A stretch of DNA of 38,192 nucleotides from Thermodesulforhabdaceae bacterium (GTDB lineage: Bacteria > Desulfobacterota > Syntrophobacteria > Syntrophobacterales > Thermodesulforhabdaceae): the NCBI GenBank assembly GCA_037482015.1, contig JBBFKT010000014.1, forward strand, positions 1 to 38,192, read 5' to 3'. Under the pieces are notes generated by a model that was given only the letters and a program-made list of their open reading frames with translations, did not search any database and had not been told where the DNA came from. Positions 17,939 to 34,523 of this stretch are shown piece by piece (the first letter of the stretch is position 1; each line of letters opens with the position of its first letter). The translations under genes and the position numbers were made by a program.

Positions 17939-18145
17939 GATTCTGGCTCCTTTTCGGTAAGTGAGTTAAGTTCTTAATATCATTAAAGCCTGTTGTAAAT
18001 TCCGCAAAAAATTCTCTATAAAAAACCCTAAAATCTTGAATTCTCGAAATCTTTATAACAGTTTTTCATCAGAACACAACATCAAGGCTGGAACAACTGT
18101 AGAATGTTTGCCTATAAAATCTATTTCGAACATTTTTACTTTTTG

Positions 18146-18217: not shown

Positions 18218-18745
18218 ATGTCTCGCCATGCTAAAAACATTTTTTTGATACTTTTGGGTATAATCATAGCATTCCCGCTCTTTTCAATGACCTATTACAC
18301 AATGGTTCGCACGTCCACCCCTTCCTTTTGCGCTTCATGCCACGAAATTCACTTCGCCTATAACACCTGGAGAACATCCTCCCACGTTAATAACGATTCA
18401 GGGGTTGTTGCTGACTGTATGGACTGCCATCTTTCTGCTCCACAAGATACAATTAATTTCTTCTATTCAAAAACTCTCCATGGTGCAAAAGACATCTTCG
18501 TCCATGTAGTTCAGGGATCGGAACGCTACGACCATAAAAAAGCTAGACAGAAAGCTTATAAATCAATCAAAAATGAGCAGTGTTTGAAATGTCATCGTAA
18601 CATTCTATATCTTCCTGATAAAAGAGGAGCCATGCTTGCTCATAGAACGACTCTGTTTCCCCTAAAAGGTTATGAAAAGAAATGCACCGACTGTCATAAC
18701 AATCTGGTTCATAATGAAAAGAGCATTTACTCCTATCGGCGGTAG
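18218..18745 (+). CDS. Tetraheme cytochrome c, NapC/NrfH (HaoC-like) family quinol dehydrogenase
   Basis: 175 residues. One N-terminal membrane helix (~7-29, IFLILLGIIIAFPLFSMTYY) anchors a periplasmic domain with four CxxCH sites: CASCH (38-42), CMDCH (67-71), CLKCH (122-126) and CTDCH (156-160). Family members oxidise menaquinol and pass electrons to a periplasmic reductase. The partner is almost certainly the octaheme protein encoded 92 bases downstream, as in the HaoC/HaoA pairs of Epsilonproteobacteria. NrfH is the alternative name, but no pentaheme NrfA is present here. I chose ATG 18218 because AGGGGAG lies upstream and the helix then sits at the N terminus; a longer frame from 18104 would add an unlikely extra segment. 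Confidence 0.88.
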   Translation: MSRHAKNIFLILLGIIIAFPLFSMTYYTMVRTSTPSFCASCHEIHFAYNTWRTSSHVNNDSGVVADCMDCHLSAPQDTINFFYSKTLHGAKDIFVHVVQGSERYDHKKARQKAYKSIKNEQCLKCHRNILYLPDKRGAMLAHRTTLFPLKGYEKKCTDCHNNLVHNEKSIYSYRR

Positions 18746-18837
18746 ATCGTAATTTGAAGCTATAAATAAAACGGTAGTTCTTACCAAGCACATCATTGTT
18801 AGTCTTTGAGGGACAAAGGTTTATTTAGGGGGGAATT

Positions 18838-20265
18838 ATGAAAAAAGTTGGTATAGGAATCGTGATTCTATTTGCTATAGCTCTTTCCATAAAGATGGGC
18901 ATGAGCCAGGAAAAGGAGTCCAATCCACCGTCAGAAATTAAAAACTATCCCAAAGTTAAGGAATTTCGCATTGAACGAAGCATGCCAAAGGAAGCCATCG
19001 CCTGTATTGAATGCCATAAACAGGAAAGCCCCGGTATTTTTGCTGATTGGGCTCAGAGTCGGCATGCAAGCGCCAACATCACCTGCTTCGATTGTCACAA
19101 AGCCGAAGAAACCGATCCCGATGTTAGCGTGGATCACTTTAAGCAGTATGAGAGGAGCGACAGGCAGTATGGATCAAAAGAATATAAAGTGCCTGTCTCG
19201 GCTGTGGTAACTCCTAAGGACTGTTCACGATGTCATCCCGACGAAGTTACTCAATACAATCGAAGCAAACATGCAAACACCATAGAAATCATGTGGAAGG
19301 TCGATCCGTGGCTGAAATTCGGTATGAACAGCGAAACGGAGAGAGAATCAGGCTGTTACCACTGCCATGGAACCGTTTTGCGCATAAAGGACGGAAAACT
19401 GGACCCCAAAACATGGCCTAATGTGGGTGTAGGACGCATAAATCTCGATGGAAGTAAAGGAAGCTGCACCAGTTGCCATACAAGACATAGATTCTCCCTG
19501 ATGGAAGCCAGAAAGCCGGAAGCCTGCGGGCAGTGTCACCTTGGTCCCGATCATCCCCAGATTGAGATCTACATGGAATCCAAACATGGAAGCCTTTATA
19601 CCGCCTTCAAAAACGAATACAACTGGAATGCTGCCCCTGGCACATGGACTCCTGGGATTGATTACCGTTCTCCCACCTGCGCATCATGCCATATGTCGGG
19701 AGCTGCCACTGTGCTCACGACTCATGATGTGACCGAACGCCTATCCTGGGAAACTCAGGCAGCCCTCACCGTAAGACCTTCTGATTTTGAACCCTTCCCG
19801 GCGAAGACAAACTGGGAAGTAGAACGAGTCAAAATGAAGACAATATGCATGCAGTGCCATGGAAAAACCTGGGTTGATGACCATTATTCCAAGCTAGATC
19901 GAGTTATCGCTGAATACAATGATGTTTATTACCTTCCCGCAAAGAAAACTCTGGACGAACTTTACTCCCAGGGCATCTTAGACAAAACTCGGTTCTTTGA
20001 TGAACAGCTGGAGGTAGAATTCTACGAACTCTGGCATCATGAAGGGCGGAGAGCAAGAATGGGAGCCGCCATGATGGCACCCGATTATGCATGGTGGCAT
20101 GGTTTTTACGAATGCAAAAAGCGATACAATAACTTCATGGAAGAAGCTCGCCATCTGCTGGAAGCAGGGCAAAAGGCTTACAAAGCCAAAGACTTTCCAA
20201 ATGCTACTGGAAGCACTCAGCCACCTCCAGAAGTTTCGTCTCCCTCAACCAGTGTTCCAAAATAG
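18838..20265 (+). CDS. Octaheme cytochrome c, hydroxylamine oxidoreductase-like (HAO family)
   Basis: 475 residues with an N-terminal signal/anchor (~4-22) and eight CxxCH motifs at Cys 56, 83, 129, 173, 210, 230, 281 and 337; none is CxxCK. SRHASANITCFDCH, ESKHGSLYTAF, TTHDVTERLSW and ELWHHEGRRARMGAAMMAPD resemble HAO-family proteins. By order, heme four (173-177) would be the catalytic one. In HAO of ammonia oxidisers this heme is crosslinked to a tyrosine of the neighbouring subunit; without that crosslink, relatives mainly reduce nitrite or hydroxylamine. The tyrosines near DYAWWHGFYECKKRY (417-430) need alignment to decide. AGGGGGG precedes the ATG. The C terminus is Pro/Ser/Thr-rich. 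It likely works in the periplasm with the upstream quinol cytochrome. Confidence 0.87.
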   Translation: MKKVGIGIVILFAIALSIKMGMSQEKESNPPSEIKNYPKVKEFRIERSMPKEAIACIECHKQESPGIFADWAQSRHASANITCFDCHKAEETDPDVSVDHFKQYERSDRQYGSKEYKVPVSAVVTPKDCSRCHPDEVTQYNRSKHANTIEIMWKVDPWLKFGMNSETERESGCYHCHGTVLRIKDGKLDPKTWPNVGVGRINLDGSKGSCTSCHTRHRFSLMEARKPEACGQCHLGPDHPQIEIYMESKHGSLYTAFKNEYNWNAAPGTWTPGIDYRSPTCASCHMSGAATVLTTHDVTERLSWETQAALTVRPSDFEPFPAKTNWEVERVKMKTICMQCHGKTWVDDHYSKLDRVIAEYNDVYYLPAKKTLDELYSQGILDKTRFFDEQLEVEFYELWHHEGRRARMGAAMMAPDYAWWHGFYECKKRYNNFMEEARHLLEAGQKAYKAKDFPNATGSTQPPPEVSSPSTSVPK

Positions 20266-20286: not shown

Positions 20287-20316
20287 TGTAGGGGTGACGC
20301 ATGCGTCGCCCCTACA
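20287..20316. repeat. 30-base near-perfect palindrome (dispersed REP-like element)
   Basis: TGTAGGGGTGACGC (20287-20300) faces GCGTCGCCCCTACA (20303-20316) around AT, with a single T/G position that would wobble-pair in RNA. I associate the GTAGGGGYGACGC palindrome with multi-copy intergenic repeats in many bacterial genomes. It lies 21 bases after the octaheme gene and may also stabilise or end its mRNA. Confidence 0.65.
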
Positions 20317-32891: not shown

Positions 32892-34523
32892 TTAACTTCC
32901 AAGAATTTCTTCAAGATCTTTCTCAGGTGTTGAAATAGGTTTAATGTTGTAATTCTGAACCAGAAAGTTCAACACATTAGGAGTAAGAAAAGCTGGAAGG
33001 GAAGGACCAAGGCGCATATTTTTTATACCAAGAGAAAGAAGCGTAAGGAGAATCGCCACGGCTTTCTGTTCATACCAGGATAGAATAAGGGAAAGTGGCA
33101 GAGAATTCACATCAGTCTGAAAAGCCTCGGCAAGAGCCAGTGCCACCTGGATGGCGGAATAGGCATCATTGCACTGTCCCATATCGAGCAGTCTGGGAAG
33201 ATCTCCTATAGTTCCCAGATCTTTGTCGAAGAATCGGAATTTGCCGCAGGCGAGAGTAAGCACCACACAGTCCTCTGGAACAAGTTCCACAAAGCGAGTG
33301 TAATAATTTCGTCCGGGTTTTGCTCCATCACAACCAGCAACCAGGAAGAAATGTCTGATCCTCCCTGCTTTAACTGCTTCAACTATTTTGCCAGCCACAC
33401 TCAGCACAGCGTTCCTTGCAAATCCAACCATGACATACTTACCATTGCTATCATCGGCATAACCAGGAAGTTCAAGAGCTCGCTTGATAACCGGCTCAAA
33501 GTTTCTGTCCTTTATGTGCTCAACTCCGGGCCACCCCACAAGACCACAGGTAAAAATGTTCTTTTCGTAAACATCCCTTGGCTTCTGGATGCAGTTTGTG
33601 GTCATCAAAATAGCACCGGGAAATTCAGCAAACTCCTTCTGCTGGTTCTGCCAGGCAGTGCCGTAGTGTCCGTAGAAATGGGGATATTTTTTGAGTTCGG
33701 GATAACCATGAGCCGGAAGCATTTCGCCGTGAGTGTAAACGTAAATGCCTTTACCTTCCGTCTGCTTCAGAAGTTCTTCTAGATCCTTAAGATCATGCCC
33801 CGAAATCAGAATGGCTTTGCCCTTTTTGTGTCCTAAAGGCACCTTTGTGGGCACGGGATGGCCGTATGTGCTCGTGTGAGCGTTATCAAGAAGTTCCATA
33901 GTTCTGAGATTCACCTTGCCACAGCGCAATACCCAGTCCACCGCTTCCTGAAGGGAAAGATCCTTTCTGAGCGTTGTAGCAAGCGCTTCATGCAGGAAGC
34001 GATAGATTTCGTCATCACTTTTACCGAGAATTTGAGCATGATCGGCATAGGCTGCAATGCCTCTACAGCCGAAAATCAGAGTGTGTTTAAGGGATCTTAT
34101 GTCAGGATCTTCGTCTTTATCAGCCAGAAATCCTACATTCTCACCCTGAGCCACCATTTCGTCCTTAGTAGAAGCAGGAACAAAGTTTGCCGGACCATCT
34201 CCGAAATCGGTTTTACCCCCAGCAGCCCTAACCTTTTCCTTTAGCCTTTCTCTAAGTTCAACTGTTTTTCTTATTAGCGGCGGGAAGCGATCGGGATCGA
34301 AGTTTACATTTGTTAGCGTGGAAAAGAGTGCTTCGCAGGTGAAAGCATTGGCTTCTTCATCTTTGATTCCAAGTTTCCAGGCTTCCTGAGCCACCTGGCT
34401 GAGTCCTTTAACAGCATAGAGCAAAAGATCCTGTAAGCTTGCCACATCCGGTTGTTTCCCACAAACACCTATCTTTGTGCAACCTTCGCCCTTTGCCGTC
34501 TGTTCGCACTGGTAGCAAAACAT
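32892..34523 (-). CDS. hcp: Hybrid cluster protein (hydroxylamine reductase)
   Basis: 543 residues, full length. The N-terminal cluster motif is Cys 3, 6, 15, 21 (C-x2-C-x8-C-x5-C), as in class I proteins of anaerobes such as Desulfovibrio, where it holds a [4Fe-4S] cluster. Hybrid-cluster ligands lie in ISGHDLKDLEELL, MTTNCIQKP, FTCGLVGWPG, LACGKFRF and DMGQCNDAYSAIQVA. It reduces hydroxylamine to ammonia in vitro and NO to N2O in some bacteria, so it detoxifies reactive nitrogen. GGGGAGGG precedes the ATG. The promoter region carries a consensus FNR/HcpR-type box at -41.5 and a leader hairpin; two terminators follow the gene, so it is monocistronic. No Hcr reductase is adjacent. Confidence 0.97.
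   Translation of the reverse strand: MFCYQCEQTAKGEGCTKIGVCGKQPDVASLQDLLLYAVKGLSQVAQEAWKLGIKDEEANAFTCEALFSTLTNVNFDPDRFPPLIRKTVELRERLKEKVRAAGGKTDFGDGPANFVPASTKDEMVAQGENVGFLADKDEDPDIRSLKHTLIFGCRGIAAYADHAQILGKSDDEIYRFLHEALATTLRKDLSLQEAVDWVLRCGKVNLRTMELLDNAHTSTYGHPVPTKVPLGHKKGKAILISGHDLKDLEELLKQTEGKGIYVYTHGEMLPAHGYPELKKYPHFYGHYGTAWQNQQKEFAEFPGAILMTTNCIQKPRDVYEKNIFTCGLVGWPGVEHIKDRNFEPVIKRALELPGYADDSNGKYVMVGFARNAVLSVAGKIVEAVKAGRIRHFFLVAGCDGAKPGRNYYTRFVELVPEDCVVLTLACGKFRFFDKDLGTIGDLPRLLDMGQCNDAYSAIQVALALAEAFQTDVNSLPLSLILSWYEQKAVAILLTLLSLGIKNMRLGPSLPAFLTPNVLNFLVQNYNIKPISTPEKDLEEILGS

Follow-up and report, generated by a model that had tools for sequence, protein, structure and literature searches.

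The window, i.e., the whole stretch of 38,192 nt that was analysed (Thermodesulforhabdaceae bacterium, contig JBBFKT010000014.1), carries on its forward strand two consecutive genes for multiheme c-type cytochromes, the first for a tetraheme protein of the NapC/NrfH type, the second for a protein of the HAO family with eight CxxCH motifs. A sequence-only reading of the window had placed this pair at positions 18218–20265, which is correct, and both family assignments agree with Pfam (PF03264 and PF13447, respectively). The features of the locus are as follows.

18218–18745, + strand: NapC/NrfH-family membrane tetraheme c-type cytochrome, proposed quinol dehydrogenase (four CxxCH, transmembrane stretch, PF03264)
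18838–20265, + strand: octaheme HAO-family cytochrome c, proposed quinol-linked nitrite reductase (eight CxxCH, PF13447, profile matches to HAO-family structures)
19354–19368, + strand: heme 4 motif CYHCH, residues 173–177, at the position of the catalytic P460-type heme in HAO (alignment to HAO-family proteins)
19549–19554, + strand: distal Asp238-His239, equivalent of NeHAO Asp267-His268 (same alignment columns)
20092–20097, + strand: Trp419-Trp420, at and beside the position of the NeHAO cross-link Tyr467 (alignment columns)
20287–20316, + strand: terminator-like hairpin 3′ of the octaheme gene (13-pair stem, 4-nt loop, T-rich tail; in the terminator scan, such sites were no commoner than in shuffles)

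Judging by its genes, the host is a sulfate reducer: its genome (2.7 Mb, 95% complete) carries dsrA. The nearest named homologues of the octaheme protein, at 82–83% identity, are from Desulfacinum, and the earlier description of the host as a probable deltaproteobacterium was thus apt. The absence of NrfA, likewise proposed from the window, extends to the whole of the 95% complete genome, in which a profile search for PF02335 found no match. The genome has a single HAO-family match and three Prismane-family genes. A full-length hydroxylamine reductase/Hcp gene, scoring above the NCBIfam equivalog cut-off, lies in the window on the minus strand (32892–34523), 12.6 kb from the pair.

The tetraheme protein combines four CxxCH motifs with an N-terminal transmembrane stretch and matches PF03264 with an E value of 6e-35 in the Pfam search. 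Its start codon at 18218 is preceded by AGGGGAG. An alternative in-frame ATG occurs further 5′, at 18104; the 18218 start is preferred because, with that start, the Pfam match sets in at residue 3. The only relative with a solved structure is D. vulgaris NrfH (2j7a). Identity with true NrfH is only 25–27%, and the score against the NrfH equivalog model (71 bits) is below the cut-off of 134.

The octaheme gene specifies a protein of 475 amino acids with a signal peptide and a predicted periplasmic location, in which all eight heme motifs are CxxCH and none is CxxCK; PF13447 is matched with an E value of 1e-28. A family profile run against solved structures retrieved IhOCC (4qo5; E 2e-79), Kuenenia HAOr (6h5l; E 5e-59) and Nitrosomonas HAO (1fgj; E 7e-48), with similarity to the solved HAOs over the whole chain, and MccA was absent among these sequence matches. 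Heme domains of the MtrC and DmsE types match the sequences at low scores. An AlphaFold model of middling confidence (pLDDT 69), used for fold assignment only, suggests the same kinship: alignments to HAO-family structures yield Z values of 18–21 across 314–374 residues (20.9 for 4qo5, 19.1 for 6h5l, about 18 for the HAOs), whereas ONR and NrfA reach about 8.5 and MccA about 6. Octaheme tetrathionate reductase was not among the structure matches of the model, which by itself excludes nothing. By sequence matches and by model Z values, the protein groups with the HAOs rather than with ONR or MccA, and the family membership read from the window is upheld. An identity as ONR/TvNiR was ruled out, the catalytic CxxCK heme being missing from the sequence. 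So was an identity of the pair as NrfHA, given a genome without PF02335, hemes that are all CxxCH and a partner under the NrfH cut-off.

Close relatives of the octaheme protein (about 65% identity or more) occur in Syntrophobacteria, Desulfobacterales and Desulfovibrionales. They constitute a clade whose members are about 65–83% identical and which forms one group in our tree (support 100/99), to which neither the IhOCC-like paralogs nor the Nitrosomonas and Kuenenia enzymes belong. In this tree, drawn without the campylobacterotal Hao, long branches underlie the placement of NeHAO, KsHAOr and IhOCC. A NapC-type gene is found directly upstream of the octaheme gene in 87 of the 88 loci that have at least 1 kb of upstream DNA (81 counted directly on the same strand, and six more where the two overlap through a too-early HAO start set by the ORF caller). 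Conservation on this scale excludes chance, and the pair is therefore a unit. The quinol linkage that had been proposed on account of the NapC/NrfH-type partner is upheld as well. The pair is no oddity of a single deltaproteobacterium: as a module, it is widespread among sulfate reducers. An extended form of the HAO gene, sister to the clade, has open frames of ~710–750 amino acids (L082:4967–7177, L143 and L142), with nine CxxCH motifs in L082 and L143; in L082, a normal copy follows immediately downstream. G084, a genome of the phylum, stands out with an unusually expanded set of 12 segments that match HAO-family proteins.

The presumed catalytic site is strictly conserved within the clade. 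C173, C176 and H177 of the heme 4 motif are invariant among the 94 clade sequences, and D238-H239 is kept in all 94. The cross-link Tyr of NeHAO lies within GGWTYTEG, and counting along the chain gives residue 467, in agreement with the accepted number. An HMM profile alignment and an independent MAFFT alignment both put W419 of the octaheme protein in its column, and both W419 and W420 are Trp in 94/94 clade members. Kuenenia KsHAOr (6h5l) likewise has Trp at the Tyr467 position. Tyr417 was rejected as a cross-link residue, lying two residues off the column that both alignments give to W419. An oxidative HAO/HDH of the P460 type, as recognised by the cross-link Tyr, was similarly rejected, with Trp419 at the position of NeHAO Y467. 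This settles a point on which the sequence-only reading had made the direction of catalysis depend, in favour of a reductive-type site.

In the literature on campylobacterotal Hao, a missing cross-link Tyr is taken to favour reduction, and a Met/Trp signature is quoted for these proteins (PMC8940962). M412 and W420, the Met eight residues before the Trp, are invariant in our clade and match the spacing of that signature in a comparison by text, not by direct alignment. The replacement of Tyr by Trp, together with the retention of the distal Asp-His, fits reduction by the octaheme protein. IhOCC and the Desulfobacterota IhOCC-like paralogs (L126–L133) have Asp-Val in place of the distal Asp-His, and therefore the paralogs probably perform a different chemistry. 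A second octaheme HAO relative in Desulfobacterota (L034:5956–7284, L069:7094–8479 and L135) carries a Tyr precisely where NeHAO has Tyr467 in the alignment; in L034 and L069, it is found near the clade gene. Perhaps it is the Desulfobacterota HAO with a Tyr to which PMC12758564 refers.

The distribution of the clade was determined in a phylum-wide sample of 394 genomes with a minimum completeness of 90. It occurs in 36 genomes, and all 36 have dsrA, compared to 204 of the 394 genomes overall (p 1e-11). With NrfA called present only upon a strong match (E below 1e-65), the 204 dsrA genomes include 36 with the HAO clade and 62 with NrfA, but just one with both, where 10.9 are expected (Fisher p 1e-5). 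When the shuffling was confined to families, so that most of the influence of shared ancestry drops out, the mean overlap was 7.9, and none of 20,000 shuffles gave an overlap of 1 or fewer. Thus, the clade HAO module and NrfA are almost perfectly mutually exclusive in the sulfate reducers of this phylum; 107 of the 204 dsrA genomes have neither. Both states are found inside single genera (g1, g9, g161, g170 and g200). In g1, the genome under study has the HAO, and in its congener G001 a true NrfHA is spread across two contigs. Gaps in the assemblies may account for some absences: in G001, for example, the end of ilvD is at a contig edge and a contig starts inside ilvD.

The IhOCC-like paralogs, without the distal His, served as a negative control: they occur together with NrfA in 12 genomes, against 9.0 expected, and, hence, show no exclusion. 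The exclusion extends to other HAO clades with Asp-His, which are present in 30 dsrA genomes, one of which has NrfA (9.1 expected; this count is without the within-family control). The only genome positive for both the clade and NrfA, G162, has a divergent HAO (61–63% identical). In this genome, NrfA, a monoheme cytochrome c and the divergent HAO occur in one cluster (L118:514–4054), in which a NapC-type gene was not seen beside them.

Genes for Hcp lie within 8 kb of 17 out of 80 loci, about a fifth, where 0.4–1 would be expected; in 11 of these 17, Hcp is on the downstream side at a distance of under 400 nt. Other recurring neighbours are hemerythrin (five loci) and flavodiiron-type genes (five loci). 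In one locus (L124:907–6118), genes for qNOR, hemerythrin, the NapC-type tetraheme protein and the HAO follow each other in that order on one strand. Among the neighbour clusters of the clade loci, there was no recurring porin or outer-membrane partner, and the search for canonical NapA (TIGR01706, E ≤ 1e-150; its scope was canonical NapA, as distinct from divergent Nap or Nar) found none in any clade genome.

The HcpR operator TGTGA-N6-TCACA was sought in 82 regions upstream of the pair and was not enriched. An exact palindrome, TTGAC-N4-GTCAA, occurs in four of these 82 regions (L068, L088, L094 and one more) against 0.1 expected in shuffles, and is absent from the window. It is possibly a Crp/Fnr-type site in a minority of loci and, in view of its frequency, serves a small subset at best.

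From these data, we infer the substrate, product, direction and role of the pair: it is probably a quinol-dependent reductase of nitrite (N-oxides) that substitutes for NrfHA and protects DsrAB. The NapC/NrfH-type tetraheme protein would take electrons from the quinol pool and pass them to the periplasmic octaheme protein, whose heme 4 would bind nitrite beside Asp238-His239 and reduce it. In the absence of a cross-link Tyr, the expectation is that this heme remains a normal c heme, which would favour reduction. The product would most likely be ammonium, with some hydroxylamine or NO released that Hcp and, in some genomes, qNOR or a flavodiiron protein would clear. In sulfate reducers without NrfHA, the module would thus do NrfHA's job, mainly by shielding dissimilatory sulfite reductase from the nitrite of neighbours. 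Neighbours are assumed to be the source because no canonical NapA was found in the clade genomes, and for the same reason defence against nitrite fits better than nitrate respiration. An activity as nitrite or hydroxylamine reductase had already been suggested earlier from family resemblance; we still infer it, now with additional support from the NrfA exclusion and the Hcp/qNOR neighbourhood.

NrfA reduces NO and hydroxylamine besides nitrite, and its exclusion does not single out nitrite because it acts on these other substrates too. The main substrate of the pair could, therefore, be hydroxylamine or NO, with the pair as a quinol-linked detoxifier of reactive nitrogen intermediates and nitrite reduction secondary, and the neighbouring genes for Hcp, qNOR, hemerythrin and flavodiiron proteins, which handle NO or hydroxylamine, speak for such a role. 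Hcp itself acts on both NO and hydroxylamine. We nevertheless consider it rather unlikely: many loci have none of these neighbours, and the partner in the exclusion is a nitrite reductase, albeit one with the side activities just mentioned.

A reductase of sulfur compounds, e.g., sulfite, the function put forward for the HAO-family members of a different clade related to Desulfobacterota (PMC9213671), would explain why the present clade is restricted to dsrA genomes (36/36), and the wider fold family does include sulfite and tetrathionate reductases (PMC9213671). The exclusion with NrfA and the linkage to Hcp argue against it, as do the Z value of about 6 for MccA compared to 18–21 for the HAOs and the absence of MccA from the sequence matches, so that we hold it to be improbable. 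It is still harder to see the octaheme protein as a non-catalytic multiheme wire for extracellular or interspecies electron transfer. A multiheme cytochrome does adjoin a quinol dehydrogenase here, and there are the low-scoring matches of MtrC- and DmsE-type heme domains, but the full-length HAO fold, the invariant distal Asp-His and the heme 4 pocket point to catalysis, a porin or outer-membrane partner does not recur among the neighbours, and a wire would leave the exclusion with NrfA unaccounted for. Least credible is an oxidase that takes electrons from hydroxylamine to quinone (forward HURM), perhaps with Y417 or Y424 as an unusual cross-link: both are invariant in the clade and near the aligned Tyr467 position, but W419 occupies that column in two independent alignments, D416-Y417 is common to nearly all Desulfobacterota HAO relatives, whatever their group, and we know of no ammonia monooxygenase that would provide these strict anaerobes with hydroxylamine. 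An annotation paper reads Desulfobacterota HAO-family proteins as hydroxylamine oxidases (PMC10116758).

Desulfobacterota have many HAO-family proteins, whose role has so far been unsettled. That the pair replaces NrfHA almost perfectly, even inside single genera, and is linked to Hcp leads to a concrete claim, namely, that the quinol-linked nitrite reductase proposed here is a second nitrite-defence system in sulfate reducers. More tentatively, NrfHA and NapC-HAO might be interchangeable nitrite-defence modules in many sulfate reducers, repeatedly swapped within genera, with the HAO route running over two compartments: hydroxylamine/NO would arise in the periplasm and cytoplasmic Hcp would finish the reduction, and no nitrate reductase would be involved. 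On this more tentative reading, a large HAO clade would gain a function and its presence would predict nitrite resistance, of relevance to souring control by nitrate or nitrite. A second nitrite-defence system would help to foresee which sulfate reducers withstand nitrite treatment in oil fields. It would also matter for DNRA gene surveys in which nrfA and onr are the only genes counted, and for the evolution of HAO from reductases to the oxidases of nitrifiers and anammox bacteria; a 2025 phylogeny places the anammox HAOs within large Desulfobacterota clades (PMC12758564). The HAO family and the general idea are already known. As far as we can tell, the clade-wide NrfA exclusion, with its controls within families and by paralogs, and the Hcp linkage are all new, and our literature search, outside which most subscription journals fell, returned no statement that an HAO replaces NrfA in sulfate reducers.

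Of the solved relatives, IhOCC of Ignicoccus (4qo5) scores best, both by sequence and by model, but it and its Desulfobacterota paralogs differ from the octaheme clade in having Asp-Val and forming a separate clade, and the paralogs co-occur with NrfA. Kuenenia HAOr (kustc0457/0458; 6h5l), a nitrite-reducing enzyme without a Tyr cross-link, shares with the octaheme protein the HAO fold (Z 19.1), the Trp and the Asp-His, though a long distance separates the two in the tree. KsHAOr is not paired with NapC but functions together with a different cytochrome in one complex.

The closest parallel is the reverse-HURM pathway, by which Nautilia profundicola ammonifies nitrate with HaoA, the NapC/NrfH-type CycB and Hcp (PMC3701875). 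Common to both this system (and campylobacterotal Hao) and the one described here are an HAO-family octaheme protein without the cross-link Tyr, a quinol dehydrogenase of the NapC/NrfH type, no NrfA, and Hcp in the genome, often adjacent. Near mutual exclusion with NrfAH is a further common trait: according to its authors, the reverse-HURM module occurs together with NrfAH in only one genome (PMC3701875). The clade genomes differ in that canonical NapA is absent at our search threshold, and in that the pair consists of adjacent genes, found in sulfate reducers and belonging to what appears to be a separate Desulfobacterota clade.

NrfHA protects sulfate reducers against nitrite, and D. alaskensis G20, which is devoid of nrfHA, is extremely nitrite-sensitive (PMC5701242). 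The NapC-HAO pair differs from the pentaheme NrfHA system in its octaheme HAO-family subunit, in the absence of a CxxCK heme and in a partner only distantly related to NrfH. It has the same two-gene layout, a quinol dehydrogenase with a periplasmic multiheme reductase, and the role that we propose for it is the same.
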